This document shows positions 1 through 13,506 of a stretch of DNA of 64,000 nt, piece by piece. Position 1 is the stretch's first letter. Every line of letters starts with the position of its first letter. Origin of the DNA: Proteocatella sphenisci DSM 23131 (GTDB taxonomy: Bacteria; Bacillota; Clostridia; Peptostreptococcales; Filifactoraceae); the NCBI RefSeq assembly GCF_000423525.1, contig NZ_KE384028.1:60950-124949 (forward strand), given 5' to 3'. The notes below the pieces were generated by a model. It had not been told where the DNA came from. It did no database searches and saw nothing but the letters and a program-made list of their open reading frames with translations. Made by a program: the position numbers and the translations under genes.

Positions 1-1
1 T

Positions 2-172
2 AACCATATATCCAAAGGGCACAGGTCTAAGAGACCCGTGGAAATGATGGAATTGTTAGGATTAAAGCACAGACCGTTATTTAGGGATAATTATTTATTT
101 CTGGTACTGGAATATATTGAAATGAAAACACCTGATAATCCAAATAGTAGTAGGCAAAATAATTGCAGATAT
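2..172 (+). pseudogene. C-terminal remnant of an AAA_4/Fic-type ATP-binding protein
   Basis: An open frame enters from the window edge and ends at a stop near base 214. Its first 50 or so residues include RPVEMMELLGLKHR, RDNYL and IEMKTPDNPNSSRQ. These resemble the winged-helix tail of the divergent AAA_4 (AlbA_2/RecG-like) or Fic proteins, which usually read LGLKHRPTFRDNYL, then IEMTIPDKPNS. The stretch between these blocks is shortened and the residues after it fit poorly, so I read this as a decayed end. It could instead be the true end of a divergent gene lying mainly outside the window. Confidence 0.45.
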
Positions 173-395
173 CAAAATTTGAAATTAAAGATAATATTGC
201 TACCCCTATATTAGTCAGCAAAAGCCTGGTCAAAAGAACTCAACTTTGTTAGTTGGAATGATAAGGAACCAAAATGTGATTTTTAAGAAGTGCTTATGAC
301 AAAATTTACGGACGTCCCTGGGATGTTTTGATATTTTCTGTAAATAATAAAAAATTGCTACAATAACAGGTTTAAAAATAAACGGGAGAGATAAT
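173..395. other. Intergenic stretch with no supported gene
   Basis: AT-rich sequence between two gene remnants. A 67-codon minus-strand open frame here has no ribosome site and no recognisable protein character. The only useful signal is a GGGAGAG ribosome-site-like element at 384-390, which belongs to the DUF4236 remnant that follows. Confidence 0.5.
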
Positions 396-659
396 ATGGG
401 ATTGAGAATGAGAAAAAGTTTTTCTGTTGGCAAAGGTTAGAGTCAATATAGGAATACCTGGTACAGGCATCTCTTACGTGGACGCATCTACGGGAAAATG
501 TGAATTCAGTAGCGCCTAATGAAATCTACTGCAGATAAAAAAACATCAACAGCAGTTCCAACATTCTCGATAAATTTAACAAAAATAGCTGATTATGATT
601 TAATACAGGCTTATGTTTGTAGCGGGTCTAATAGAGAAATAATCAAAGGCCAAAATTAA
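396..659 (+). pseudogene. Broken DUF4236-domain gene
   Basis: Three pieces lie in order on one strand. MGLRMRKSFSVGKG starts at 396 behind a GGGAGAG site and stops at 438. RVNIGIPGTGISYVDAS follows in the +1 frame from 439. A 46-codon tail runs from 519 to 659. DUF4236 proteins begin with a G(L/F)R-(M/F)RKS motif and, about 45 residues later, carry an IPGTG(I/L)SY motif. Here the middle is missing and the frame changes, so the gene has lost a segment and picked up a stop. The tail is plausibly its former C-terminal region, but I cannot assign that part to a family. Confidence 0.6.
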
Positions 660-663
660 ACAC

Positions 664-692
664 TTGTGCAAAATGATTATATGGTGTATAAT
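664..692 (+). promoter_or_regulatory. Putative promoter of the cold-shock gene
   Basis: TTGTGC at 664-669, a 17-base spacer and a perfect TATAAT at 687-692. Transcription would start near 699, giving a leader of about 150 bases before the start codon at 851. Long leaders are usual for cold-shock mRNAs. Confidence 0.5.
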
Positions 693-743
693 AAGAATAT
701 AGTTTGTAATTTCAAGATATTCAGAAATATATTTAATTTTCGG

Positions 744-810
744 ATTCACGTCATATTAGAGATTATAAGCACACACTACGTGTAATCTGTAATATCATGT
801 GAATTTTTTT
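744..810 (+). promoter_or_regulatory. Long hairpin plus T-run in the cold-shock gene leader
   Basis: Bases 744-767 pair with 781-804 over about 24 positions with only two mismatches and a few G-T pairs. The loop is 13 bases, and a run of T follows at 804-810. It looks like an intrinsic terminator lying between the putative promoter (664-692) and the cold-shock gene. It may be an attenuator or temperature-sensitive structure in the leader, or the terminator of something upstream. Confidence 0.5.
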
Positions 811-850
811 CATGAAATAACAGAAACAGAATAAAAGGAGGTACCTCAAT

Positions 851-1048
851 ATGAATGGTACAGTAAAATGGTTTAACGCAGAAAAAGGTTTTGGATTTAT
901 TACAACAGAAAATGGTGAAGATGTTTTTGCTCACTTTTCACAGATTCAGTCTGATGGATACAAGTCATTAGACGAAGGTGATAGAGTAAGCTTTAATGTT
1001 GCAAAAGGCCCTCGTGGCGATCAAGCTGAAAATATAGTAAAGCTGTAA
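851..1048 (+). CDS. csp: Cold-shock protein, CspA family
   Basis: 65 residues, the full family length. It is a single OB-fold cold-shock domain that binds single-stranded RNA and DNA and melts mRNA structure in the cytoplasm. Both nucleic-acid motifs are present: RNP1 as KGFGFITTE (about residues 13-21) and RNP2 as VFAHFS (25-30). The N-terminus MNGTVKWFN and the C-terminal ENIVKL are typical. The ribosome site AAAGGAGGT ends nine bases before the ATG. The gene stands alone, with its own promoter, a hairpin-bearing leader and a terminator. It is the only intact recognisable gene among the remnants at this end of the window. Confidence 0.97.
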
Positions 1049-1090
1049 TAATATATAGTAAAGCTATAACCAATCTAAATATTGTAATTT

Positions 1091-1130
1091 AAAAAATAAA
1101 ACATTTTTAAAAATGTTTTATTTTTTTTTT
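1091..1130 (+). terminator. Intrinsic terminator of the cold-shock gene
   Basis: A perfect inverted repeat centred between 1108 and 1109, with AAAACATTTTT facing AAAAATGTTTT, followed by a T-run to 1130. The stem is AT-rich but long and directly follows the gene. Confidence 0.75.
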
Positions 1131-1150
1131 AAAAAAAGGAGGAAACAATT

Positions 1151-1667
1151 ATGAATATTTTTATAAATTTGACAATTATACTGTTATTAAATATATTAGG
1201 GTCTTGTTTAAAAAATCTAAAGACAGTTTTTCTGTCGCAAAATGCAATCAAACCTGTTTATATAACAACTTTTATAGATTCATTCAATTGTATTTTTTTA
1301 TGCTTTTAAAATCACTACCACTTCATCTGGAATTGCTTTTGTTTCGGTGTTTGCACTTGGTAAGTTGATAGGTGTGTTTTTAGGGAATAAAATAGAAAAC
1401 AAATTAGCTTATGGGCTTCTTGAAGTCGATGTGTATAAACATAAAGAACAAGGAAAGGCACTGGCTGATGAGCTACGTAATCAGGGATACTCAGTAACAA
1501 CAACAGTTGGTTATGGGGTTAATGGTCTCGAAAGATTGATGCTTAAAATAATATTGCCTCGTAATTGTTTTTCTGATTTACATGAAATATTGAAAACAGA
1601 TGGTAATGTGAATATGTCAATTAAAACTATTTCACAAATATACGGAAAAGTTGGTATAATAAACTAA
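1151..1667 (+). pseudogene. UPF0316/DUF5698 (YebE-like) membrane protein, frameshifted
   Basis: An ATG at 1151 with a GGAGGAAA site upstream opens a hydrophobic N-terminus (MNIFINLTIILLLNILGS) that stops at 1307. The same protein resumes in the +1 frame just before and continues to 1667. The resumed part has the family's ALGKLIGVFLGNKIENKLA block followed by the DUF2179-like LRNQGYSVTTTVGYG region. The frames join near the T7 run at about 1292-1300. A one-base slip there would restore a protein of about 171 residues, close to family length. It may be a real inactivation, a phase-variable T-run or a sequencing error. No function is known to me. Confidence 0.7.
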
Positions 1668-1731
1668 AATCAGCCTTAAGGTACTAGTAGTTCGCCATGA
1701 ACTGGCTAACGCATTAAACATGGAGAGAATT

Positions 1732-1968
1732 ATGGATTATCAGTTAAAGCTGGTGAAATTTTCAGGGAATTTCTCTGACATGATGCTTGCGTACTCCTTT
1801 TTAATCTGGGTATATATATAATTGAGAAAGTTTTTTAAAAAAAACAATAATAATTCAAATACTGTAAATAATAAAAGAAGTGCCATTGATGTATTAAATG
1901 AAAGATATGCAAAAGGCGAAATAGATGAGGACGAATATAAGAGAAGAAAACAGATACTCAAAGATTAA
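1732..1968 (+). pseudogene. SHOCT-domain membrane protein with an in-frame stop
   Basis: An ATG at 1732 with GGAGAG four bases upstream opens a 29-codon frame ending in a hydrophobic stretch (MMLAYSFLIWVYI) and a TAA at 1819. The same frame then continues without interruption through a Lys/Asn linker into a classic SHOCT domain (SAIDVLNERYAKGEIDEDEY) and ends at 1966. Reading through the single stop gives a 78-residue protein with one membrane segment and a C-terminal SHOCT domain, the same layout as the intact neighbour at 1985-2254. I infer a nonsense mutation in one copy of a tandem pair. Confidence 0.65.
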
Positions 1969-1984
1969 TGCCTAAGGAGGGACT

Positions 1985-2254
1985 ATGAATAGATATTGGG
2001 GTGGCGGTTTAAACGATATGATGAATTTTGGGAGTCATGCTGCTGGATGGTTTATTGCATTTGAAATGATAAAATTATTAATAATAGTTGCATTAGTAAT
2101 TTTTATAGCTAAAATGTTTATAAAAAATTCCAAAAATAATGTTGATTCAACTCCAAATACAAGCAGAGCAATTGAAATATTAAAGGAAAGATACGCTTCT
2201 GGGGAAATAACAGAAGAGGAATATAAAATCAAATTGAATAAACTGAGGGAGTGA
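1985..2254 (+). CDS. SHOCT-domain small membrane protein
   Basis: 89 residues. Residues about 25-47 form one membrane segment (IAFEMIKLLIIVALVIFIAK). A short polar linker leads to a C-terminal SHOCT domain with the motif ILKERYASGEITEEEY. SHOCT domains are short C-terminal helices found on many unrelated proteins, probably for oligomerisation; no enzyme activity is expected. An AAGGAGGG site lies just before the ATG. It is a paralogue of the broken copy upstream. The stop codon sits inside a hairpin shared with the convergent radical SAM operon. Role unknown. Confidence 0.8.
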   Translation: MNRYWGGGLNDMMNFGSHAAGWFIAFEMIKLLIIVALVIFIAKMFIKNSKNNVDSTPNTSRAIEILKERYASGEITEEEYKIKLNKLRE

Positions 2255-2272
2255 AATATAATCACTACCCTC
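2245..2272. terminator. Possible bidirectional hairpin between convergent genes
   Basis: GAGGG-A-GTGA (2245-2254) pairs with TCAC-TA-CCCTC (2262-2272) across a seven-base loop, overlapping the stop codons of the SHOCT gene and the last radical SAM gene. The T-tract is weak on both strands, so termination is uncertain. Confidence 0.4.
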
Positions 2273-3614
2273 CCTTTATCATAAGCCTTATATAATTTTT
2301 CGATGCCTTGATTGCACCTGTTGCAATTCTAAACACATTGCTAGGTCCGTATTTTTTGAGCATATCGGTATTGCTGTTTATAAACAGATTAACATAAAGA
2401 TAAGTTATCATCAGCTGATAGTAGTAGCTTCTGATGCTTATTTTTGATGGCCTTATTATCATCTGCCCAAAGCTCCATTTTTCGTAGTCATCGGCTTTAT
2501 AAAGGAGTCTGTCTTTATACTCTTCATACAAAGGTAATCCGGGAAATGGGGTAAGGGGGTTTATGGTTGTTATCTGAGGCTTTAGTTTTTTGATATATTT
2601 TCTGAAATTGACAAAGTCTTCTTTGTCCCAATCTGGGTGCGCCATAAAGGAAGCCCACACATCTATATTGAGGCTTTTCAACAGTTTGGATGCCTTCAGA
2701 TTGGAGAGGGTACTTATATTTTTATTATAGATTTCAAGTTCTTCGTCTTTAAAGGTTTCGTAGCCTATAAGTATGGCTTTTAATCCAAGGCTGGCAAATT
2801 CGCCGAGCAGGTCCTGATTTTCGAGGACTCCTTTTACTGAGCCATAGATTATATAGTTCTTTTTTAAATCAAGTTCTCTTATTATCTCAAGAAATCCTTC
2901 TAATTTTTGCCTGCTTGCCAAAAAATCATTATCTATAAACATAATGGTATCTTCTTCAATGTTTTCAAGGTCGGGGATGGTTATGTCTTTATCTATTTCG
3001 ACTTCTTTATAGCCCTCGATTCTCCATCTGAGGCAGAAGCTGCACCTGTTTTCGCATCCCAGTCCATATTCCATTATTGCTGCAGGGCGATATCCAAAAT
3101 AAGAATAGTAGGATCTGTATTTTTTTGTGCTCTTTCTGTCTGGCAGCAGGTATTGATTTTTGCCTTTTGGAAAAACGTCTTTGAATGCATTTTGTCTTTG
3201 ATAGACTCCTTCTATGTTTTTTTCCATCTTCAGGAATTTCAAAAGATTATCCTCTGTAGTATAGTTAAATACATAATCTATACATGGATGAAAGAAGCTC
3301 TCTGGTGAGAGCAGCGCCTGGGTTCCGCCTGTAAAGGTAATGATTTTTTCGTCACATTTTTTGATTTTTTCGCACAGGTCTATTACCTTCAGCACGTCTA
3401 TGCAAAGGCTTGTTATTCCAATCATATCTGGCTTAAAATCACTAATTTTATCCTCTATGGACATTTTTTCAATCATCATATCAAATATCTCTACGGTGTG
3501 ATTTTTCGTAAAAACGCCATAGATCATTTCTAATCCTAGTGGCTCGGAAAACATGAAGTTGCTTACGGTTATTGCCTGTTTTATCCTGGGCGGTCTGACT
3601 AATAGTATTTTCAT
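2265..3614 (-). CDS. B12-binding domain radical SAM protein (HpnR-like)
   Basis: 449 residues with an N-terminal cobalamin-binding Rossmann fold (about 1-110, ending in FTGGTQALLSPE, without the DxHxxG motif). A radical SAM TIM barrel follows with its cluster cysteines at 187, 191 and 194 (CENRCSFC), then a helical tail. The early EPLGLEMIY block and the LTPFPGLPLYEEY block recall class B radical SAM methylases such as the hopanoid methylase HpnR and other lipid-modifying enzymes. The probable reaction is methyl transfer to, or rearrangement of, an unactivated carbon; the substrate is unknown. It is the last gene of the operon, 10 bases after its neighbour. Confidence 0.9.
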   Translation of the reverse strand: MKILLVRPPRIKQAITVSNFMFSEPLGLEMIYGVFTKNHTVEIFDMMIEKMSIEDKISDFKPDMIGITSLCIDVLKVIDLCEKIKKCDEKIITFTGGTQALLSPESFFHPCIDYVFNYTTEDNLLKFLKMEKNIEGVYQRQNAFKDVFPKGKNQYLLPDRKSTKKYRSYYSYFGYRPAAIMEYGLGCENRCSFCLRWRIEGYKEVEIDKDITIPDLENIEEDTIMFIDNDFLASRQKLEGFLEIIRELDLKKNYIIYGSVKGVLENQDLLGEFASLGLKAILIGYETFKDEELEIYNKNISTLSNLKASKLLKSLNIDVWASFMAHPDWDKEDFVNFRKYIKKLKPQITTINPLTPFPGLPLYEEYKDRLLYKADDYEKWSFGQMIIRPSKISIRSYYYQLMITYLYVNLFINSNTDMLKKYGPSNVFRIATGAIKASKNYIRLMIKGG

Positions 3615-3624
3615 ATGCTTCTCC

Positions 3625-4947
3625 CTAAAATATATTTGGCGTTATTCTTCTTTTTATCTGCTCTCTATAATAGAGGTTTACAAACATATTAAATATATAC
3701 CTGAATGGGGTCTTTAAAATTTCTCTTCGCAGTATATTCCTTTTCAAGATGGATTTAATGGTGAAGAGGTCTCCATAAAGTTCCCAATATGCTTTTGTCA
3801 ATTCTTCTGGCGTCATGTTTTTGGGTTTGTAAACGGCGCTTGTTCCGTCATATGAATAGATATCATTATTTACAAGTCTGCCTGATGCTTTTATCTGATC
3901 AAAAAACCTGGTTCCTGGAAAGGGCGTCAAAATATAGAAGCGTGGTACTGAAATTTTGTTTTTTTCAATAAAGTCCTTTGTTTTTTTGATTGATTCTAAA
4001 GTATCTCCTTCTCCGCCAACTACCATCTCTGTGGAGACATCTATTCCGTGGTTTCTGATATTTTGAATAAGCTTGTCGTATTCATCTGGCCTTGCCCATG
4101 CCTTATCCATGGAAAGAAGGCTTTCTCTTGAAGTGCTCTCTAACCCAAAGCTTAGGGTCTGACAGCCACTTTCATAAAGCTTGCGAAGAAGCTGATCGTC
4201 TTTTCCGATGGTGATTTCACACTGGCTCATCCAGTTGATTTTGAGCTTTATAAAGGTATCTAAAAGCTTGTTAAGATAGACTCTGTCTGAAAATATATTG
4301 TCGTCTAAGAGGAGGATTTTTTTGTAGCCAAGTGATTTGATTTGCTCAATATCTCTGATAACTTCATCGAGTGGCCTTTTAATGTACCTTCCTTTATAAA
4401 GGCATGAAACGGAACAGAAGCTGCATGAGTTGGGGCATCCTCTTCCGGCCTGAACTGGAAGGAAATCTCCAATGTTTTTGCCTTTCAGAAGGTCAAATCT
4501 TGGCAGAGGCGTCGAAAAATAACCGTTTGGAAGGGGCTTCTCGTAAGTTTTTTTGAGTTCTCCGCTTATAAAGTCAAGCAGAAGATCCTGCCATACGAGC
4601 TCTGCATCTCCAACAACAAGGCTGTCGCAGTACTTTACGGCTTCGCTTGGCATGATGCTTGCCATGTACCCTCCCATGATTACGGTTTTTCCTCTTTTTC
4701 GAAACTCTTTTGCTATATCTATGGATCTGATTATTCCGTGGCCCATCGTGCTGACTCCGATAAGGTCTGCATCTGTGTCAAATGGCACGTCTTCTATTAC
4801 CTCATAGATCAGCTCAACTTCCCAGTCATCTGGCGTAAGTGCAGCGAGCAGTGGCAGGGATAATCCGACAAAATAAAGTTTTTTCTTTTTTACTACATTT
4901 CCGTCTTTCTGATATGGACTTGGTTGTATAAGCAGTAGTTTTTTCAT
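3625..4947 (-). CDS. B12-binding domain radical SAM protein
   Basis: 440 residues. The cobalamin-binding fold (about 1-115) carries MGGYMASIMPSEA, and the radical SAM core has cluster cysteines at 171, 175 and 178 (CPNSCSFC). The motifs LLLDDNIF and LTPFPGTRFF are typical of this superfamily. The C-terminus has the helical extension PKNMTPEELTKAYWELY seen on many cobalamin-type radical SAM enzymes. It lacks the EPLxLE block of its three operon neighbours and so belongs to a different branch. It begins one base after the stop of the upstream gene, so they are co-translated. Substrate unknown. Confidence 0.9.
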   Translation of the reverse strand: MKKLLLIQPSPYQKDGNVVKKKKLYFVGLSLPLLAALTPDDWEVELIYEVIEDVPFDTDADLIGVSTMGHGIIRSIDIAKEFRKRGKTVIMGGYMASIMPSEAVKYCDSLVVGDAELVWQDLLLDFISGELKKTYEKPLPNGYFSTPLPRFDLLKGKNIGDFLPVQAGRGCPNSCSFCSVSCLYKGRYIKRPLDEVIRDIEQIKSLGYKKILLLDDNIFSDRVYLNKLLDTFIKLKINWMSQCEITIGKDDQLLRKLYESGCQTLSFGLESTSRESLLSMDKAWARPDEYDKLIQNIRNHGIDVSTEMVVGGEGDTLESIKKTKDFIEKNKISVPRFYILTPFPGTRFFDQIKASGRLVNNDIYSYDGTSAVYKPKNMTPEELTKAYWELYGDLFTIKSILKRNILRREILKTPFRYIFNMFVNLYYREQIKRRITPNIF

Positions 4948-4948
4948 A

Positions 4949-6310
4949 TTAACCTCTTATTATTTTCTTTAAATATTGAAGACTGACTTTCTGGCTTCCC
5001 TTAAGCATTTTGATATTTTCTTTAAGGCCATATTTTTTTAAGAGTCTTATCGAATTTTTGGGCCTCATGACTACTTTGTAATAGCCCTTCAAAATTTCGA
5101 TGTAAAACTGCCTTACGCTCATATGAGAAGGTTTAAGAATTACGTGAGCCATATCAAACATGGTATATTCCTGTCTTGGAACCAAAAGATGCTTTTCGTA
5201 GTCTTTGAATATATCGGTTCCCGGGATAGGGGTCAGGGGCTGAAGATTTACAAAGGTAACCTTCATAGCTGTCAGCCATTTCGCGAGATCTCTAAAATCT
5301 TTTTTGGTAAAATCCATGGGAAGAATCATCGTTGCGTATAACTCAATATCTAATTCTCTTAGAATTTGGATGCAGCTTTCGTTTATATCGACGGTGGTTT
5401 TTTTGTTGTAGGTTTTGAGATCTTCTTTCCTTATGGATTCTATACCCACGATTACCGCTCTGAGTCCTACTTGTTTAAGTTCGGCGAGGAGCTCTCTGTT
5501 TTCAGCAACAAAATCTGCACGACCATATACAAGATAGTTTTTCTCTATTTTCTTTTCCTTTAACAGGGCAATGAATTTTCTCAGTCTGTCTTCTCCAAAT
5601 AGAAAATCGTCATCCACTATGTAAATTTCTTTCTCTTTTATTTTAGAAATTTCATCTACCACGTCTTCTATATCTCTTGTAAAATATTTGCCACCTGTGA
5701 TTTCTTTGCAAAAGCAGAAGCTGCAGTCATAAGGACAGCCATAAGACGTCTTTATGAGAGAACAGGGGTTGTGGAACATGTAGTAGTAGTTTTTTCTGTA
5801 TCTTTCTACCGCCTGCCTGTCAGGGTGATTGTAGTTATATTCAAAAGGCTTTTTTTCGATCAGCGAGATTGCTTCTTTTATTTGATTTTTATCAAGAATT
5901 TTTAAAATTCCGTCCAAGGTAGAATTAAAACCGTCTATGCCGTTTTTTCTGTATATAAAATCTATGTTGCTGTCTAAAAAATCATCTCCAACTACCTCTG
6001 CGTGAACTCCTCCAACGGCTGTAAAAATGTTTGGGTTAAACGATTTGACTTCTTTTGCCAGGTTTTTTACAGTTTCCACATGAGTAATGTATGCGGTAAA
6101 TGCAACGAAATCAGGGTTTTCTTCTTTAAGCATATCTTTAAAAGATTTTGTTTCGAGAATGAAATCGTATATTTTTATATCAACATCACTTTTCAAGTTT
6201 TCAGGGATATTGGAAACCAGGTATTCAAGTTCCAAGGGTTCGCATATCATTACATGCTGAAGGCCTATAGTCTCTTTGTCTGGCCTTGGTCTTATCAGTA
6301 AAACCTTCAT
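4949..6310 (-). CDS. B12-binding domain radical SAM protein (HpnR-like)
   Basis: 453 residues from the ATG at 6310, chosen because AAAGGTGG lies four bases upstream; an ATG five codons earlier has no such site. The N-terminal cobalamin-binding fold carries EPLELEYL and VGGVHAEVV. The radical SAM cluster cysteines are at 192, 196 and 199 (CPYDCSFC), followed by IVDDDFLF. LTPIPGTDIFKDYEKHLL and a basic helical C-terminus match the 449-residue protein closely, so the two are paralogues. It probably acts on a lipid-like or otherwise unactivated carbon; that is an inference from the HpnR-like branch. Confidence 0.9.
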   Translation of the reverse strand: MKVLLIRPRPDKETIGLQHVMICEPLELEYLVSNIPENLKSDVDIKIYDFILETKSFKDMLKEENPDFVAFTAYITHVETVKNLAKEVKSFNPNIFTAVGGVHAEVVGDDFLDSNIDFIYRKNGIDGFNSTLDGILKILDKNQIKEAISLIEKKPFEYNYNHPDRQAVERYRKNYYYMFHNPCSLIKTSYGCPYDCSFCFCKEITGGKYFTRDIEDVVDEISKIKEKEIYIVDDDFLFGEDRLRKFIALLKEKKIEKNYLVYGRADFVAENRELLAELKQVGLRAVIVGIESIRKEDLKTYNKKTTVDINESCIQILRELDIELYATMILPMDFTKKDFRDLAKWLTAMKVTFVNLQPLTPIPGTDIFKDYEKHLLVPRQEYTMFDMAHVILKPSHMSVRQFYIEILKGYYKVVMRPKNSIRLLKKYGLKENIKMLKGSQKVSLQYLKKIIRG

Positions 6311-6327
6311 TTTTCCACCTTTCATAT

Positions 6328-6948
6328 TTACACTTTTTTCAGAGAGTAAACCGCGATTGTCGGCATGTATGGCTTTATTTTTATTACTTCTCTTTTTTCG
6401 ATTTGAAACAGGCCATCAATTAGTTTTTTAAAATCCTTGTCACTTGGATAAGAGGCAGGGCCTGTAGTAAGTTTTACAAACAGCAATATTATCTTATCAA
6501 ACCAGTTGTTTCCACTGGCAAAGGCAAAAACAGCAAGTCCATCTTTTTCCAAAAGTGAGTGAATTTTTTTGATGATATCGCTTTGTGAAGGATAATAGGG
6601 AAGGGAGTGGGTGCAGGTTATAATATTGAACTTTCTCTCTATTTTATCCAGTTCTTGAACATCTAAGACATAATGCTTTATATCTTTGTTTTTTTTCTGG
6701 GATTCTTCTATCATTCCCTTGGAAAAATCCAGACCTGATCTTTGTAATCCTTTAACGCCTTGAAGCTCATACAGAAGTTCTCCAGTTCCGCAGCCTACGT
6801 CAAGCAGGCTCATTGCAGTTGATTCCTCAATGCTCAAGTAGCTTGATATTATGTGTTTTACTTTTGTTCTTGTTGGTCCCAGAGAATATTTTTGAACCCA
6901 CAATTTACTGTAGTTTTTGGCCCAAAAATCCCAGATTTTTTTCTTCAT
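6328..6948 (-). CDS. Class I SAM-dependent methyltransferase
   Basis: 206 residues. The SAM-binding motif I is LLDVGCGTGELLYEL (about 49-63), with an acidic motif II region near SGLDFSKGMIEE and a post-motif ITCTHSLPYYP. The first residues (IWDFWAKNYSKLW) match the UbiE/Coq5-like Methyltransf_11 group acting on small molecules. Its ATG overlaps the stop of the upstream radical SAM gene by four bases, so translation is coupled. In this operon it most simply supplies an O-, N- or S-methylation beside the carbon chemistry of the radical SAM enzymes; the substrate is not known. Confidence 0.9.
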   Translation of the reverse strand: MKKKIWDFWAKNYSKLWVQKYSLGPTRTKVKHIISSYLSIEESTAMSLLDVGCGTGELLYELQGVKGLQRSGLDFSKGMIEESQKKNKDIKHYVLDVQELDKIERKFNIITCTHSLPYYPSQSDIIKKIHSLLEKDGLAVFAFASGNNWFDKIILLFVKLTTGPASYPSDKDFKKLIDGLFQIEKREVIKIKPYMPTIAVYSLKKV

Positions 6949-8246
6949 AGTAATCCTCTTATCATTTTTCGTATTCTTTTAGATTTTAACAGCCTAAGGT
7001 GACCGATGTAAAATAAGGTATAAAAATACCATTTTGGAAGCTTTGATGGAATCACCAGATGGAGAAAATCGAATTTTGCAGGGTCTGTTGTTGTGAGGAG
7101 CTGTTTTTTGTTTTCATAGTCAAGAGTACCTTTTAGCGGAGTCATTATGGATAGGGTATAAACGCTTATATTAAGGGCTTCTATATATCTAAAAAGCCTC
7201 AAAAAATCTCCTGTATTATACTGTGGATCTACTATAAAAAGAGCAGTAAGCTCTATATTTTTTCTTTTTAATATTTCCGCAAGCCGTTTATAGATACTGG
7301 AGCTTTGCCCCTTATTATAGTCATTTAAAGTATCTGGATTTGGAGATTCAAATCCAACTATAACTTCATCAAGGCCGCAAGCTTTGAGCTCTGAGATCAG
7401 GTCTTCGTTTTCAACCAGGAAATCTGCTCTAAGGTATGCAATAAGGCTCTTTGCGCCGCCGCATTTTATAGGGGTTTTAGCGCCTGTTCCTGGGTCGCTG
7501 TATTTTTTGGAAGCTTTAATAAAGGAAAGGGCATCTTCTCTTGTGGTCAAAAAGCAATCGTCAATAAGCCATATGTACTCAGAATCTATATTATACACCT
7601 GACTCATCAGCTTGCCATAATCTGGTTTTATGTACTTGCCTTTGTTCAAAAGCCTGCAGTAACAAAAATTGCACTTATAGGGACAACCATGAGCTCCTTT
7701 TACAAGGGCCACTGATTTTTTGTCAATATATCTTGTTTTTTCTTTTATCAGATTGAAGAAACCCCTGCACGGAACTATATCCTCGCTGTTTTTAAGAAGG
7801 TCGTCTTCTCCTGTGGTCCAGGTTTTTGTATCTTTGTTGTAGATATCCATTCCTTTTGTAACCGTTTCTCCACCTAAAAAAATTTTGAAGGTTTCAAAGC
7901 CCTGAGAAAAATAGACAAAGTCAATGCCGCTCACTCTGAATGCTTGGCGGTTAATCTGTGCGTGGACTCCCGAGACCATGATTTTTGCAAGGGGGTATTT
8001 TCCTTTATAATCGTTTGCCCTTTTAATTATAAGATTTTCCGCCACATTATAGCCACTCAGGATGATGAGGTCAGGGATAATGCCGCCTGGTTTGTTCATT
8101 TTAAAGAGGGGATCTATTATATAGGACTCAATGCCTTCTTGTGACAACACTGTCTGTATGTAAATCAGCTCCAAAGGCTCGGTTATTATGGGGTCCAAAG
8201 CGGAAAAAAGCGTTTTTTCTCTTACTTTTTCTAAAAAAACTATCAT
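6945..8246 (-). CDS. B12-binding domain radical SAM protein (HpnR-like)
   Basis: 433 residues. It has EPLELIYIQ near residue 24 and a cobalamin-binding fold ending in VSGVHAQINRQA. The radical SAM cluster cysteines are at 188, 192 and 195 (CPYKCNFC), followed by WLIDDCFL. The C-terminal MTPLKGTLDYENK block and the stretch DFLHLVIPSKLPKWYFY resemble the tail of HpnR-type methylases. It is the most diverged of the three EPLxLE paralogues here. It overlaps both neighbours by four bases, upstream (transferase) and downstream (methyltransferase). Confidence 0.9.
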   Translation of the reverse strand: MIVFLEKVREKTLFSALDPIITEPLELIYIQTVLSQEGIESYIIDPLFKMNKPGGIIPDLIILSGYNVAENLIIKRANDYKGKYPLAKIMVSGVHAQINRQAFRVSGIDFVYFSQGFETFKIFLGGETVTKGMDIYNKDTKTWTTGEDDLLKNSEDIVPCRGFFNLIKEKTRYIDKKSVALVKGAHGCPYKCNFCYCRLLNKGKYIKPDYGKLMSQVYNIDSEYIWLIDDCFLTTREDALSFIKASKKYSDPGTGAKTPIKCGGAKSLIAYLRADFLVENEDLISELKACGLDEVIVGFESPNPDTLNDYNKGQSSSIYKRLAEILKRKNIELTALFIVDPQYNTGDFLRLFRYIEALNISVYTLSIMTPLKGTLDYENKKQLLTTTDPAKFDFLHLVIPSKLPKWYFYTLFYIGHLRLLKSKRIRKMIRGLL

Positions 8247-9184
8247 GAGTTCACCTTGTATACCCTGTGTTTATTCGGATATCCTTTATATGAAAAATAT
8301 GGAGTCAGTTTTTTGAGTGCCCATCCAAGTAAGGGGTTATTATGGTGAAGATACAAATACTTAGGTTCCTCAATGCATCCTATTTTAGACTTGGTTTCCT
8401 CTGATGTCTGTCCAAAATTTATAGTATCTGTGCCTCTTCTTATTCCTTCTTTCAGGATGAACTGCAGCATGTTGTAGTATATGTCATGATTTTTTACATC
8501 TTCTTCCTTAAATCCACAAAAAAGGAAAAGAAGCTCGTTTTTTCTTTCTAAAATCTGAACAAAAGCCAAAACCTCGTCCTTATGATCTTTAAATTCATAC
8601 AAGTCTGCACTAAATTCTTTGAAGAATTCCAGTGGAAGAATCTCGAGTTTGTTTTCTGATCTGTCAAATACGTCTTTATAAAGATTGTAATGATTTGAGC
8701 TAAAATCCTTATTTTCAAGCCTTTTAATATTTAAATTCTTTCCCTTTTCCTGAGCGATTTTAATTCTTCTCCTGTAGCTGCTCCTGAGGGAGTTAAGGTA
8801 TGTATCGTAGTCTGAAAACTGATTTTTGAATACGAAGCTAGAGAGGGTTTTTCCTCCATTGATGAACTTTTTATCACTGTTTAATATCAGGCTCAAACCA
8901 CTTAAAGATTTTAGGATTTTAAGGGCCGGACTCATGTCTCCAAATATCCCTGGCATTGCTATTGAAACAGGCAGACCGACTATTCTTAAAGGAAGTGAAA
9001 ATTTCAGCCCCTTTTTGAAATTAAACAGATTCAGGCGGTGAATATAAGTAACGATTACGGTGTCTTCTAATTTGTAATACATCTGTCCGCAGGGATTTAT
9101 TCTTTCCAGCAGCAGAAGGAGCTTCTTGATGTCATCTTGTATCTGGCAGTTTTCAATATCTGCTATGCTCGAGTATTCCTTCAT
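8243..9184 (-). CDS. GNAT/FemAB-like acyl- or aminoacyl-transferase
   Basis: 313 residues with no signal peptide or membrane segment. The C-terminal half looks like the GNAT fold of the BioF2-like (PF13480) and FemAB-type transferases: an SYRRRIKIAQEKG block near 135-150, a core strand LAFVQILERKNELLFLFCGF, then YYNMLQFILKEGIRRG and INFGQTSEETKSKIGC. Relatives move acyl or aminoacyl groups onto amines; the donor here is unknown. An AAAGGAG site precedes the ATG, which overlaps the upstream transferase by four bases. Family membership is judged by eye. Confidence 0.7.
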   Translation of the reverse strand: MKEYSSIADIENCQIQDDIKKLLLLLERINPCGQMYYKLEDTVIVTYIHRLNLFNFKKGLKFSLPLRIVGLPVSIAMPGIFGDMSPALKILKSLSGLSLILNSDKKFINGGKTLSSFVFKNQFSDYDTYLNSLRSSYRRRIKIAQEKGKNLNIKRLENKDFSSNHYNLYKDVFDRSENKLEILPLEFFKEFSADLYEFKDHKDEVLAFVQILERKNELLFLFCGFKEEDVKNHDIYYNMLQFILKEGIRRGTDTINFGQTSEETKSKIGCIEEPKYLYLHHNNPLLGWALKKLTPYFSYKGYPNKHRVYKVNS

Positions 9185-10263
9185 TTAAGCTCCTTTACAT
9201 ATGCCACATAGTTTTTTTCGACTCCATCTGCCCACTTGTAGCCAAAGTTGCCTGACATAATATTTTCTTTAAGAACCCAGCCGGATTCAAATGACTTGAA
9301 CCTGCCCTTTGTTACATTGAAACAGTAGTCAAAAAGCGCGAGGATAGCTCCTTTTTTCTGTTCTTCTTTGATTATGCCCATCTCAACTATCTTAAACTTG
9401 GTAAGTTTCTTTTTCTTTATAAGAGTATTAATTACCGTTTTTAGACCGATAGTCTCTCGTTGATCCATGATTTGATGAAAGTCTGGATACCATAACATAA
9501 ATCCAACTTCTTTTCCATCTCTTTCAACAAAGATGAGATTGTCTTTTTTCAAAAGCAGCTTAAAGTCTTTAAAAAGCTCAAGATCTTCTGCTTCCACCCT
9601 TTTGTAGTAGAAAGGATGATCTTTAAATGCATCATTGTTAATGCGTGTGTAGACTTTGGCCTCGTGCTCCATATTGTTGAAATCTGCAGGCCTTACCGTA
9701 TATCTTTTGCTGATTCTTGCCCTGAGTCTTTCATCAAGCAGCGTAAATTCCTTTTCCATATTCTTATAAAAAGTTACCATGGGAATAGGCTGGAAATTGT
9801 ACTCGTTAAAATAGCGGTGGATAAATTCATCGTTGTGAGCCATCCCAAAACTTTGGGGTTTGTCATATGAATCAGCCAAAAATCCCAGTCCGTAATTAAC
9901 ATGGATGTTTAATGAAGCGCATATCTTTTGGGTATTCCAGAGCTTGGAAATTTCAACCGCCTTACTGTATATTATATCAAATGCTTCTTTATTATATACT
10001 CTGGATTCAAAAAAACTTATCTGCAAATAATCTTCCATTCTAAGTGCCTTAGCAAGAATGCAACTCATTATGATTATTCCATCTTTTTTTACCATCAGCG
10101 GCAATATCTTTATAGACTGACTCATTACCGATGTTTCAAAGAGAATTCCTTTAAGGAGTCCAGATAATGAATCCCTTCTCAGTGGGTTATCAAGGTATTG
10201 TGACTTGTAAAACGTAAGTATTTCTATTTTTTCTTTCCTCGAATTTGCAATTATTAATTCCAT
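9181..10263 (-). CDS. GNAT-fold transferase, first gene of the radical SAM operon
   Basis: 360 residues from the ATG at 10263. AAAGGAAGG lies seven bases before it, whereas the ATG eight codons further upstream lacks a site. The protein has two halves. The C-terminal one has GNAT-like features (NDAFKDHPFYYKRVEAEDLELF, split by NLIFVERDGKEVGFMLWYPD) and ends with FESGWVLKENIMSGNFGYKW, a pattern of acyltransferases in natural-product and lipid clusters. No catalytic residues can be assigned. As the first gene of a seven-gene operon it probably acts early, or conditions the substrate. I do not recognise an exact family. Confidence 0.6.
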   Translation of the reverse strand: MELIIANSRKEKIEILTFYKSQYLDNPLRRDSLSGLLKGILFETSVMSQSIKILPLMVKKDGIIIMSCILAKALRMEDYLQISFFESRVYNKEAFDIIYSKAVEISKLWNTQKICASLNIHVNYGLGFLADSYDKPQSFGMAHNDEFIHRYFNEYNFQPIPMVTFYKNMEKEFTLLDERLRARISKRYTVRPADFNNMEHEAKVYTRINNDAFKDHPFYYKRVEAEDLELFKDFKLLLKKDNLIFVERDGKEVGFMLWYPDFHQIMDQRETIGLKTVINTLIKKKKLTKFKIVEMGIIKEEQKKGAILALFDYCFNVTKGRFKSFESGWVLKENIMSGNFGYKWADGVEKNYVAYVKELK

Positions 10264-10413
10264 AAGTTTACCTTCCTTTAAGTTCATTGAAACATAATGC
10301 CAAATAAGATGTCAAGATATTGTTTATTTTACAATGTAAGAACGCAAAGTCCGTTTTATTGGACACCTGATGTGATATGATTGAATTATTAGTTTACAAG
10401 AAGGAGGAAGACG

Positions 10414-10446
10414 ATGAGAAATAAAGTTTTGCATGCGGTAATATGA
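10414..10446 (+). CDS. Ten-codon leader peptide with a strong ribosome site
   Basis: An excellent AAGGAGGAAG site lies five bases before an ATG that opens MRNKVLHAVI and stops at 10444-10446. That TGA overlaps the ATG of the 67-codon gene at 10443 (ATGA). The downstream gene has no ribosome site of its own, so this short frame probably feeds ribosomes into it by coupling. A lost or shifted frame that once joined the two is the alternative. Confidence 0.5.
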   Translation: MRNKVLHAVI

Positions 10447-10646
10447 AATTTGGAGTAAGAACACCAAGTCTTAGTAAGAGAGTAAAAGCAAGGACCAGCG
10501 TGAAAAGGCAAATTGTTCACAGAGCTGGAATAAAGATGCCAAGAGGATACGGCTGGATTAGAAATCCCGAAAAGTATGCATACAACAAAGTATATAACAA
10601 AACTTCAGTAGACATTTTATCACTTCTGAAAAAATTGTTTAAATAG
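10443..10646 (+). CDS. Small basic conserved hypothetical protein
   Basis: 67 residues, strongly basic. The pattern GVRTPSLSKRVKARTS, then GYGWIRNPEKYAYNKVYNKT, matches a small family seen in many Firmicutes chromosomes and mobile regions, often labelled as a phage-type or hypothetical protein. I know of no assigned function. There is no signal peptide or membrane segment. The start overlaps the ten-codon frame upstream by four bases. A terminator follows at 10693. The charge suggests nucleic-acid contact, but nothing in the sequence proves it. Confidence 0.7.
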   Translation: MKFGVRTPSLSKRVKARTSVKRQIVHRAGIKMPRGYGWIRNPEKYAYNKVYNKTSVDILSLLKKLFK

Positions 10647-10692
10647 ATAGGGATGTGAATTCGGATTTTTCGTTTGAAAGATTAATAGTCCC

Positions 10693-10728
10693 AAAAAAGC
10701 TACCGGAGTTTTTCCAGTAGCTTTTTTT
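10693..10728. terminator. Bidirectional intrinsic terminator
   Basis: AAAAAAGCTAC-C-GGA pairs with TCC-A-GTAGCTTTTTT around a short T-rich loop. It has A- and T-tracts on both sides, so it can serve both the small gene and the convergent phosphatase. Confidence 0.85.
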
Positions 10729-10732
10729 GCGA

Positions 10733-11998
10733 TTATTTTTTAAGAGTTGTTGTATCTATCAGTACATTATTTACATCATATGCATTAACTACCAAGCTAC
10801 TGTCACTTACAGTAACTGCAACAAACATCTGTGTACCGGGCTGCAAATCTATTAATTGCCAGTAACGTGATTTTGTTGGGTAAAACTTTGCGCCTCCAGA
10901 ATTGGCAGTAATATAAACGGTTCCTTGTCCATTTTTGACTTTTGTTTTGTTTTTCATCGGATAAGTTCGCACATAATTGTGGTCATGACCCTGTAAAACA
11001 AGGTCTATCTTTAATTTATCAAAGACCGGTGTCAATTCATCTCTTATTGTAGAGGATTCGTGAACGGCGCCGTAAGGACCTCTGTGCAGGGCTACGATTT
11101 TCCACTGCTTATCTGTTTTAGCCATATCGGAACTCAGCCACTCGCCTTGTTTTTTAAGGTCGTATCGTTCAGATTCTGTATTCAGAACGGCTATATGTGC
11201 ATTACCATAATCAAATGAATATACGGCTACAGGAAGTGATTCCGCGTCGATTTCTTTTGCAATATTAAATCTGTCAGTAAAATTTTTCATGTTTGAATTT
11301 GTTCCATTTTTATTCATCGCATCGTGATTTCCCACAGCCGGTACAATTGGAATATTGATAAGCTCAGGCTTTACAGCGTTTGCAAAGAGATCCCATTGCT
11401 TTATTTTTTGGCCATCGTCTACCATGTCTCCTGTGTGAACTAAGAATTTTGCATCCGGAAATTTTTCGAATGCTTTTATCAGAGTGTTTTTCCATAGTTT
11501 ATAATCTTTTTCATCAGAACCCTGAGTGTCTGTTATTTGAATGAACGTAAATGGGTTCAATTTATTTTCTGCCGTTTTAAAGGTTCCTTGAGCGCTGATT
11601 ATGTCAGGTTTATTAACAACACGATAAATATATGTTGTTCCTGGTTTTAGTTTACTCAAAGCCACTTTATGAATCATTCTGCTGTCTGTGTCAGTTTTTA
11701 CTTTATAGCTTGTGGTCGTTACTTTGATAATGTTACTACTGTTAAAATTTTTGAATTCATTTTTTGGACAATACTGTATCATGCCTGTTTTATTTGATGG
11801 GGAAGTAATCCAAGTGAAATTACGATCGGTTGCAGGATCTTTGCCAAAATTATTGATAACACTAATGTCAGTGATTATCTGGGGTGGAGTTATTGGTGCA
11901 ATGGCAGAAGCTGCAAATGCACCATCGCCTGTCGAAAAAGTAAATACCAGACAAAGGACCGCTATAAAACTGGTAAATATTTTCAATTGTTTTTTCAT
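10733..11998 (-). CDS. Secreted purple-acid-phosphatase-like metallophosphoesterase
   Basis: 421 residues. A signal peptide covers about 1-30 (likely cut after GAFAA). An N-terminal fibronectin-III-like domain follows (about 40-145, with LKPGTTYIYRV), then a calcineurin-like phosphoesterase domain. Metal-site motifs appear in order: TDTQGSDEKDY, HTGDMVDDG, VGNHD, ALHRGPYG and GHDHNYVRTYP. This is the purple acid phosphatase layout, with a dinuclear metal centre that hydrolyses phosphate esters outside the cell. A C-terminal strand domain ends the protein. AGGAGG precedes the ATG. It is a single-gene unit, divergent from rbsK. Confidence 0.9.
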   Translation of the reverse strand: MKKQLKIFTSFIAVLCLVFTFSTGDGAFAASAIAPITPPQIITDISVINNFGKDPATDRNFTWITSPSNKTGMIQYCPKNEFKNFNSSNIIKVTTTSYKVKTDTDSRMIHKVALSKLKPGTTYIYRVVNKPDIISAQGTFKTAENKLNPFTFIQITDTQGSDEKDYKLWKNTLIKAFEKFPDAKFLVHTGDMVDDGQKIKQWDLFANAVKPELINIPIVPAVGNHDAMNKNGTNSNMKNFTDRFNIAKEIDAESLPVAVYSFDYGNAHIAVLNTESERYDLKKQGEWLSSDMAKTDKQWKIVALHRGPYGAVHESSTIRDELTPVFDKLKIDLVLQGHDHNYVRTYPMKNKTKVKNGQGTVYITANSGGAKFYPTKSRYWQLIDLQPGTQMFVAVTVSDSSLVVNAYDVNNVLIDTTTLKK

Positions 11999-12066
11999 AA
12001 TAGCCTCCTGAATCTATGGGTTAAATGTCTTATTTCATATATACATACTATTATATAATCAGATAA

Positions 12067-12122
12067 TTGTATATGAGCAAAATTTATTAATAATATAAAA
12101 GTTTGTAACTACATATATGTAG
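12067..12122 (+). promoter_or_regulatory. Putative ribose-operon promoter with a palindromic operator
   Basis: TTGTAT (12067-12072) and TAATAT (12091-12096) are spaced 18 bases apart, placing a start near 12103. A perfect 14-base palindrome, CTACATATATGTAG (12109-12122), lies directly downstream, where a bound repressor would block the polymerase. No repressor gene is nearby. Confidence 0.4.
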
Positions 12123-12170
12123 GGTATATCTATGATATATGAAATTGTTATGAAAAGAGGAGATTGCCAT

Positions 12171-13055
12171 ATGAAAATATCAGTTATTGGAAGCATTAAT
12201 ATGGATATGACTGTTACAGCAGAGAGAATTCCATTAAAGGGTGAAACCTTGAGAGGGAGTGCTATTAATTATATACCGGGTGGAAAAGGGGCAAATCAGG
12301 CGGTATCTATGGCAAAACTGGGAGCCAGGGTGGAGATGTTTGGTTGCATTGGTGATGATGACTCAGGAATAAAGCTATTAGAGAATCTTAAATCAGTGGG
12401 GGTTGGGACGTCTTATATAAAGGTAATAAAAGGGGTTGCAACCGGAATTGCACTTATAACTATTGGTGAGAATGACAACACTATAGTAGTTGTACCAGGT
12501 GCCAATGCTATGGTGGACAAAACGTATGTTGATAATATAGCAGAGTCCTTGCTGGAATCAGATATTGTACTTTTGCAGCATGAGATCCCTGTTGAGACTG
12601 TTGAATATGTGATTGATTTATGTACAAAACATGGAGTAAAAGTCGTTCTAAATCCTGCTCCGGCATATCCGCTTAAAAAGGAAACTATTGAAAAAGTTAC
12701 CTATCTGACACCGAATGAACATGAAGCGGTTATTTTATTTGGAAAAGAACTATCCATGGAAGAATTGTTAAAGAAATACCCTGAAAAGCTTATTATAACC
12801 TTGGGTTCTAAAGGGGTAACAACCTGTCTTGAAAGTGGAAAAGTATTACTTATTCCAGCTCGAAAAGCTGAAGTGGTAGACACTACTGGAGCTGGAGATA
12901 CTTTAAATGGGGCATTTACACTACAAATAGCTAAGGGAGCAGATATAAAGTCGGCTTTGGAATATGCCAATGTAGCGGCCAGTCTCTCAACGGAGAAATT
13001 TGGGGCTCAAGGCGGCATGCCAACAGATGAGGAAGTAAGAAACGAAATGAAATAA
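12171..13055 (+). CDS. rbsK: Ribokinase
   Basis: 294 residues, a PfkB-family kinase that phosphorylates D-ribose to ribose 5-phosphate. The ATG at 12171 is chosen because AGAGGAG lies just upstream and MKISVIGSINMDM is the family N-terminus; the longer frame from 12132 adds unrelated residues. The sugar-binding GGKGANQA is at 37-44, NPAPA near 151 and the catalytic DTTGAGD at 237-243, with Asp243 as the base. First gene of an rbsKDACB operon, 32 bases before rbsD. Confidence 0.97.
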   Translation: MKISVIGSINMDMTVTAERIPLKGETLRGSAINYIPGGKGANQAVSMAKLGARVEMFGCIGDDDSGIKLLENLKSVGVGTSYIKVIKGVATGIALITIGENDNTIVVVPGANAMVDKTYVDNIAESLLESDIVLLQHEIPVETVEYVIDLCTKHGVKVVLNPAPAYPLKKETIEKVTYLTPNEHEAVILFGKELSMEELLKKYPEKLIITLGSKGVTTCLESGKVLLIPARKAEVVDTTGAGDTLNGAFTLQIAKGADIKSALEYANVAASLSTEKFGAQGGMPTDEEVRNEMK

Positions 13056-13087
13056 AATAAAACAAAAAAAAGAAGGGTGGGTTACTG

Positions 13088-13483
13088 ATGAAGATATCAG
13101 GGATACTGAACAGTGATATTTCAAGAGTATTATCTTATATGGGGCATACGGACACCATATGCATTGCAGATTGCGGTCTTCCGGTGCCAGATGGTGTGGA
13201 AAGAATAGATCTGGCTTTAAAGTTTGGGACCCCGACTTTTGTGGAAACATTAACAGAAGTTGCTAAGAACATGAAGGTAGAAAAAATTATATTGGCAGAA
13301 GAAATAAAGCTGGCTAATCCGGAAATTATTAAAGATGTAATAACTTTGTTTCCAAATCTTGAAATCAGTTTTGAACCACATGATGATTTAAAGAAACTCA
13401 CAAAAGAGTGTAAAGCAGTTATTCGTACAGGTGAAAATACTCCATATGCCAATATTATTTTACAATCTGACTGCATTTTTTAG
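13088..13483 (+). CDS. rbsD: D-ribose pyranase
   Basis: 131 residues, full length for RbsD. It interconverts pyranose and furanose forms of ribose so that the kinase can use the imported sugar. The family N-terminus (GILNSDISRVLSYMGHTD) contains the catalytic His20. The CGLPVP segment and the C-terminal RTGENTPYANIIL loop are also conserved. An AAGGGTGG ribosome site precedes the ATG. It lies between rbsK and rbsA in the same operon. Confidence 0.96.
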   Translation: MKISGILNSDISRVLSYMGHTDTICIADCGLPVPDGVERIDLALKFGTPTFVETLTEVAKNMKVEKIILAEEIKLANPEIIKDVITLFPNLEISFEPHDDLKKLTKECKAVIRTGENTPYANIILQSDCIF

Positions 13484-13506
13484 CAGATTTAGAAAGGAAG
13501 ACTAAG

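Follow-up and report, generated by a model that had tools for sequence, protein, structure and literature searches.

Several B12-type radical S-adenosylmethionine (SAM) enzymes tailor one product in series in thienamycin and polytheonamide-type clusters, where the scaffold comes from a carbapenem pathway, a ribosomally synthesized and post-translationally modified peptide or another dedicated pathway. Aminoacyl-tRNA-dependent ligases, such as Sbb17 and Sba18 of the streptothricin type, also serve natural-product operons, and a 2026 review (PMC12945691) places GNAT-fold transferases that depend on aminoacyl-tRNA in the valanimycin (VlmA), dehydrophos (DhpH/DhpK), pacidamycin (PacB) and BD-12 (Orf11) pathways. 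Here we analyze seven genes, g1 to g7, of Proteocatella sphenisci DSM 23131, a member of the Clostridia, that occupy positions 10263-2265 on the minus strand of a 64,000-nucleotide stretch (hereafter the window; contig NZ_KE384028.1, positions 60,950 to 124,949). They encode two transferases of predicted GNAT fold, four radical SAM enzymes and a methyltransferase. To our knowledge, none of the aminoacyl-tRNA ligase pathways combines a second tandem GNAT with four B12-type radical SAM enzymes. Unlike the thienamycin and polytheonamide-type clusters, the operon offers only the two transferases, joined in some relatives by an acyl carrier protein (ACP) and a ligase. We favour, with a probability of about 50%, an acyl/aminoacyl pathway independent of nonribosomal peptide synthetases (NRPSs), with serial B12-radical tailoring and a small molecule or lipid as product. 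The parts are of known kinds; what appears to be new is that they are combined in one closed and widespread pathway. The open-access literature, searched with narrow terms and with most subscription papers outside its scope, returned no description of the gene set among the titles listed.

According to the list of open reading frames (ORFs) in the window, the seven genes are co-directional and overlap or nearly touch: g1 (9181..10263, 360 amino acids), g2 (8243..9184, 313), g3 (6945..8246, 433), g4 (6328..6948, 206), g5 (4949..6325, 458), g6 (3625..4947, 440) and g7 (2265..3614, 449). Overlaps of 4 bases link g1/g2, g2/g3 and g3/g4, and the remaining gaps measure 2 bases between g4 and g5 (17 if the inner start of g5 is used), 1 between g5 and g6 and 10 between g6 and g7. 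The coordinates thus bear out the tight packing noted in the preliminary description of this locus. An upstream ATG at 10287 would extend g1 to 368 amino acids (9181-10287); the inner start at 10263 is probably the better one, because most homologues start at the inner ATG.

That preliminary description had assigned the operon to a single pathway and had proposed a search of genomic neighbourhoods. We surveyed 247 genomes of the same order and 398 genomes of the phylum. In the order, g1 had matches at E <= 0.001 in 27 genomes, of which 24 were strong (E <= 9e-46); the three with weak matches (G013, G029 and G172) were left out, as their fetched stretches contained no cluster. The g6 profile exceeded 750 bits in 24 of the 247 genomes, with the next score at 302 bits. 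The strong thresholds for both genes were chosen after seeing this kind of gap in the scores. The two sets are identical: the same 24 genomes carry strong g1 and strong g6. In the phylum survey, g6 scored above 690 bits in 8 genomes, all of which also have g1 at E <= 1e-70. Over the two surveys, g6 scores fall into two groups (>= 696 and <= 316 bits). Among the 23 loci of the order besides the window, 20 contain all seven genes; this count includes fused genes, one g7 truncated where the fetched stretch stops and one short g7 ORF. Two of the other three (L035 and L038) have no g7 within their 20 kb, and in the third (L049) a contig edge falls inside g2 and the g6 of that genome lies on another contig. 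In seven loci (L044-L048, L050 and L051) BLAST places the gene that occupies the g3 slot closer to g5 than to g3, which makes it a paralogue within this group and not a sure orthologue of g3. Fusions join g4 to g5 in two loci of one genus (L041 and L042) and g5 to g6 in L047, a locus from the genome that also supplied L074. Families differ in the order of the genes and in what flanks them, and the set itself is retained. As support only, pairwise tree distances of g1, g2, g5 and g6 correlate over 77 loci (r 0.82-0.92), in a comparison made without a control set and with some genomes counted twice.

Because g1 and g6 occur in the same genomes, the clusters are complete although rearranged and some members are fused, the proposal that the seven genes act as one pathway is supported. 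The neighbourhood search shows that relatives share the gene set, with some members optional. That unrelated enzymes came to lie together by chance is hardly conceivable, given the identical 24-genome sets, the rearranged yet complete clusters and the two types of fusion; nothing was found in favour of such a grouping, and that g3, g4 and g7 are present in some loci and not in others marks these genes only as optional.

To follow the set more widely, we used the g6 profile, which found 226 relatives in a collection of representative genomes. The best 80 loci were fetched, a sample biased to close relatives and including some genomes of the order survey. The counts below refer to the 61 loci with at least 8 kb upstream and at least 1 kb downstream of g6; several of the other 19 nevertheless contain the whole set or the greater part of it. 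Assignments to g3 and g7 are best-profile calls among paralogues. Besides g6, the 61 loci contain g5 (61), g2 (60), a g3-type gene (60), g1 (59), g4 (42) and a g7-type gene (30). Both loci without g1 (L102 and L111) begin inside g2, so that g1 may lie past the fetched stretch. The commonest make-up, found in 27 loci, consists of g1, g2, g5, g4, one g3-type and one g7-type gene; the second, found in 13, has g1, g2, g5 and three g3-type genes without g4. The number of g3-type ORFs per relative ranges from 0 to 3. These counts identify g1, g2, g5 and g6 as the core, with g6, which forms a tight family of its own, as its marker, while the presence of g4 and the count of additional radical SAM genes vary, as tailoring steps do.

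Record titles name Sedimentibacter, Tissierella, Desulfosporosinus, Youngiibacter, Fusibacter, Acetoanaerobium, Clostridium, Geosporobacter, Alkaliphilus, Acetivibrio and many Lachnospiraceae, together with single bins labelled Kiritimatiellia, Spirochaetes and Melainabacteria, labels that we took as given. A plasmid collection yielded two g1-like records, one of 2.6 Mb from Acetoanaerobium noterae and a weak match in Rubrobacter. The 226 relatives of g6 point to a widespread biosynthetic unit in anaerobes of many families, composed of enzyme classes that carry out some of the most difficult carbon chemistry.

The two transferases had been described as GNAT/FemAB-like from the letters alone, and AlphaFold (AF2) models place both in the GNAT fold. 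The product of g1, a proposed N-acyltransferase, gave no match in either Pfam or NCBIfam at E <= 0.1. Its model (predicted local distance difference test, pLDDT, 89.5) aligns end to end with the tandem GNAT 7q3a (Z 23.6, root-mean-square deviation (rmsd) 3.3, 299 residues), and other fold matches are glucosamine N-acetyltransferase (5kga, Z 21.6) and mycothiol synthase (2c27, Z 21.5). As modelled, its fold is a tandem GNAT, with two GNAT domains in one chain. The product of g2 has only Pfam matches below cut-off (PF04339, FemAB_like, 18.5 bits; PF13480, Acetyltransf_6, 16.8 bits). Its model (pLDDT 91.2) is nearest to Sbb17/Sba18 (Z 18.3-17.9; for 9wqw, Z 18.3, rmsd 3.1, 243 residues), at an identity of just 11-13%. 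FemX (7z5y, Z 16.8) comes next, then FemA and domains of MprF, the MprF/L-PGS domains scoring Z 15.9-14.8; Foldseek alone ranks FemX first. By its model, g2 thus has the double-GNAT fold of the FemX type, which it shares with Sbb17/Sba18, and would act as an aminoacyl-tRNA-dependent amide ligase. By hhalign it can be aligned over 259 columns (E 1.3e-5, probability 81%) with three FemAB-like proteins found in relatives, and Lys265 is invariant in 23 of 23 members, with a spacing that looks FemAB-like by eye. Searches of solved structures by sequence returned nothing convincing for g1 and none for g2, and a profile comparison of the two with each other gave no recognisable kinship (probability 0.95%).

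The same fold matches bear on another explanation, in which the cluster tailors the cell wall or a glycoconjugate: g2, working in the manner of FemX, would take a peptidoglycan precursor as substrate, g1 would act on an amino sugar, and the radical SAM enzymes would modify the peptide or sugar. The likeness to FemX and to glucosamine N-acetyltransferase agrees with it, but sequence identity in these matches is just 11% and 15%, respectively, and the ACP and ligase of some relatives (see below) do not fit. We also know of no radical SAM enzyme that works on wall precursors, and consider wall tailoring improbable.

All four proteins that the preliminary description had named as CxxxCxxC radical SAM enzymes exceed the cut-off of Radical_SAM PF04055 (g3 45.9, g5 65.8, g6 65.1 and g7 50.0 bits), and the motif is conserved in 85 of 86 aligned members (g3 23/23, g5 20/20, g6 22/22, g7 20/21). 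The further claim that all four cores lie behind cobalamin-binding folds holds clearly for g5 and g7, which exceed the cut-off of 32.1 for the B12-binding domain PF02310 with 47.5 and 44.1 bits, and is only likely for g3 and g6. A cobalamin synthase gene in the same genome (PF02654, 175.2 bits) makes cobalamin plausible in the cell. The four enzymes belong to the same B12-binding radical SAM superfamily as BchE, HpnJ, PhpK, ApyD, AprD4 and CysS, but the scores obtained are far under the curated cut-offs. The hopanoid C-3 methylase HpnR (TIGR04367, cut-off 650) is the best NCBIfam model for g3 (69.6), g5 (189.1) and g7 (147.1), and g6 scores 44.2; g5 and its paralogue g7 share the B12-binding and radical SAM architecture of HpnR and align over most of the model, but no hopanoid gene is found among the seven. 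BchE (TIGR02026, cut-off 481.35) is the second-best model for g5, at 104.6, the highest score obtained against it, and the P-methyltransferase PhpK (TIGR04479, cut-off 600) reaches 96.3 for g6 and 90.2 for g5. No curated NCBIfam cut-off, that of HpnJ included, was reached, as judged from the best 25 of 30 matches for g4 and g5 and the best 25 of 33 for g6. Solved relatives by sequence include AprD4 (6fd2), CysS (9n1b) and TokK (7kdx). One publication (PMC13331322) attributes methyl transfer, ring contraction, thioether formation and ring formation to B12-type radical SAM enzymes; methylation is therefore the commonest expectation, not a certainty.

The remaining enzyme, g4, is a class I SAM-dependent methyltransferase (PF13489, 54.8 bits, cut-off 27). 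Its top NCBIfam model is BchM/ChlM, and this, together with the second place of BchE for g5, could by analogy suggest a tetrapyrrole-like or other cofactor pathway. The g4 score is 49.6 against a cut-off of 158.9, however, and that of g5 is also far under its own; ACP, ligase and two transferases do not fit such a pathway, nor does its sporadic presence. A cofactor as product is thus highly improbable.

The strongest hint at function comes from the neighbours of g1 in relatives of the Lachnospiraceae type. In 14 loci an ACP (PF00550) and an AMP-forming ligase (PF00501) lie together directly upstream of g1 and in its orientation; in L112 only the ligase appears as a called ORF, and L099, near a contig start, has the ACP only. 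Pfam and NCBIfam were run on one ACP and one ligase, the latter from L091 (PF00501, 173.7 bits). The ACPs are 73-87 amino acids long, and their serine stands in an L-x-S-F-D context in 15 of 15. Titles of these loci name Lachnospiraceae, Butyrivibrio, Oscillospiraceae and Ruminococcus, and some mention the rumen, omasum or abomasum. This association suggests that g1 would use an acyl thioester and lends support to the acyl-transfer chemistry proposed earlier. An attempt to name the substrate of the ligase was dropped, as its 12 best solved relatives are too spread (malonyl-CoA, succinylbenzoate, feruloyl and fatty-acyl ligases, chimeras and luciferases, at 81-88 bits).

ACP and ligase would also fit the main rival reading, a remodelling of membrane lipids in which g2 as an MprF-like aminoacyl-lipid transferase, g1 as an N-acyltransferase and HpnR-like radical SAM enzymes that methylate or cyclise acyl chains would yield an aminolipid retained in the membrane as a structural component. 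The MprF/L-PGS domains among the fold matches of g2, the rank of HpnR as best model for three of the radical SAM enzymes and a set with no transporter family inside it all point in this direction. Set against them are HpnR scores far under cut-off, the lack of any known lipid-backbone enzyme among the seven genes (the flanks of relatives being only partly annotated) and a patchy distribution, 24 of 247 genomes, that would be unusual for a structural lipid. On balance we regard a structural membrane lipid as unlikely, although it deserves more weight than the other rivals.

In the NRPS-independent acyl/aminoacyl pathway that we prefer, g1 would first move an acyl group from an acyl-ACP or acyl-CoA thioester to an amine. 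The donor may be supplied by the AMP-forming ligase and ACP in the Lachnospiraceae-type relatives and by housekeeping carriers elsewhere. The FemX-like g2 would then add an amino acid from aminoacyl-tRNA, giving, with g1, a small N-acyl/aminoacyl amide scaffold. The core enzymes g5 and g6 and the variable paralogues of g3 and g7 may C-methylate, or cross-link or rearrange, unactivated carbons of this scaffold, each radical enzyme at its own position, and g4, where present, would add a conventional methyl group. All substrates are inferred, as are the order of the reactions and what each radical enzyme does. It is also possible, as a tentative generalization, that the cluster represents a large Clostridial class of N-acyl aminoacyl amides, whose synthesis would need a tandem GNAT and a FemX-like ligase dependent on tRNA but no NRPS, polyketide synthase (PKS) or ribosomal precursor. 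Two fixed B12 radical SAM enzymes, and up to three interchangeable ones, would then elaborate these amides, in many families including the Lachnospiraceae of the rumen. If this is true, the product varies according to how many radical enzymes there are and of which kind. If the division into core and optional genes holds, strains that differ in g3, g7 or g4 should differ by defined mass steps within one product series.

Several observations weigh against this pathway or parts of it. The proposed use of aminoacyl-tRNA by g2 derives from its fold, and hhalign is gapped around FemX Lys305, so that the catalytic lysine is not pinned to Lys265 of g2. The pyrophosphate loop of g1 agrees with the canonical GNAT motif only in part, which makes its acyl donor a putative one. 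Likeness of the radical SAM enzymes to characterised ones is remote throughout, and PF02310 stays below cut-off for g6 (27.8 bits) and g3 (20.6 bits, a weak match); the one g6 orthologue that was run, from L097, exceeds it at 36.0 bits. The ACP and ligase families each occur in only 15 loci, are absent from the cluster of the window and from the other loci of the order, and are missing even from some Lachnospiraceae loci (for example, L120). As to the set itself, L124 has no ORF above the g2 threshold, L092 consists of g1, g2, g5 and g6 alone, and one genome of the phylum survey (G624, 1 of 398) has a strong g1 without g6. The g1 orthologue of that genome, which is 84% complete, lies at 1847-2914 of L142 and scores 319 bits; the 8 kb fetched of its 21-kb contig contain no other cluster gene.

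Searches for further components agreed in part with the list of missing parts drawn up earlier. No NRPS or PKS domain was found by Pfam (E <= 0.1) in any of the seven proteins, the flanks of relatives being partly annotated, and no transporter family lies inside the set, according to the survey of families flanking it in relatives. For a precursor peptide the result has a narrower scope: a limited scan of 95 loci gave 121 candidates (24-75 amino acids, with a ribosome-site filter) and no conserved precursor-peptide ORF, although the filter or a distant location could hide one. The eight largest families of small ORFs shown consist of fragments of the ligase or ACP, or of duplicates from a single genome or its very close relatives. 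Two flanking families that look by eye like transporter genes were rejected as members of the set for their inconsistent presence: F2, which is ABC-ATPase-like, occurs in 12 loci and is separated from the set by one or three to four genes, and F34, which is EamA-like, adjoins the set in 3 loci. A link to defence was rejected as well, since PADLOC gave only generic radical SAM and methyltransferase matches (35-47 bits).

An Rfam search of positions 1-14000 at E <= 0.1 found no riboswitch or other RNA upstream of g1; the sole match in this region, at 765-1022 on the plus strand, resembles the cspA thermoregulator (39.9 bits, below the gathering score of 78). Scans for promoters (40 versus 33.2 in shuffled sequences, standard deviation 5.6) and terminators (9 versus 7.5, standard deviation 2.6) gave numbers near those of the shuffles, and we therefore drew no operon boundary from them.

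Some neighbours look like local additions. A metallophosphatase accompanies the cluster in one genus (L044, L045 and L047, with duplicates). An ABC-type ATPase, a CobW-like GTPase and a small Fe-S protein stand between g7 and g6 in L102 (6697-8791) and L095 (7305-9435), with Pfam run on L102, and are possibly a cofactor or reactivation module. An arginase-family gene lies near g1 on the opposite strand in two families (L048 8320, L050 8279 and L030 11653, with Pfam run on L050), possibly by chance or as a hint at polyamines.

A second cluster in the same order carries four g6-like B12-type radical SAM genes and a GH3-family acyl-adenylating gene (L135 6189-14982, L136 4737-13663, L137 5957-14637 and L139 5307-13706). 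The GH3 assignment comes from Pfam in L135 and L136, and from position and likeness in L137 and L139. Two further proteins of about 235 and 356 amino acids have no Pfam match where this was run, and g1 and g2 are not clearly related to the partner proteins of this cluster. Like the g1-g7 cluster of those relatives that carry the ligase, it pairs an acyl-activating gene with four B12-type radical SAM genes, but these score 219-292 bits, compared with about 700 or more for true g6, and the stretches contain the GH3 protein in place of g1 and g2. It looks like a parallel acyl/radical pathway. In L138 (955-17265), a cluster that includes three g6-like radical SAM genes also encodes a ketoacyl synthase, a component of 2-hydroxyacyl-CoA dehydratase and, by eye, an ACP-like protein, among further genes. 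The window itself encodes one further radical SAM protein, of 600 amino acids, at 55589-57391 on the plus strand, far from the operon.

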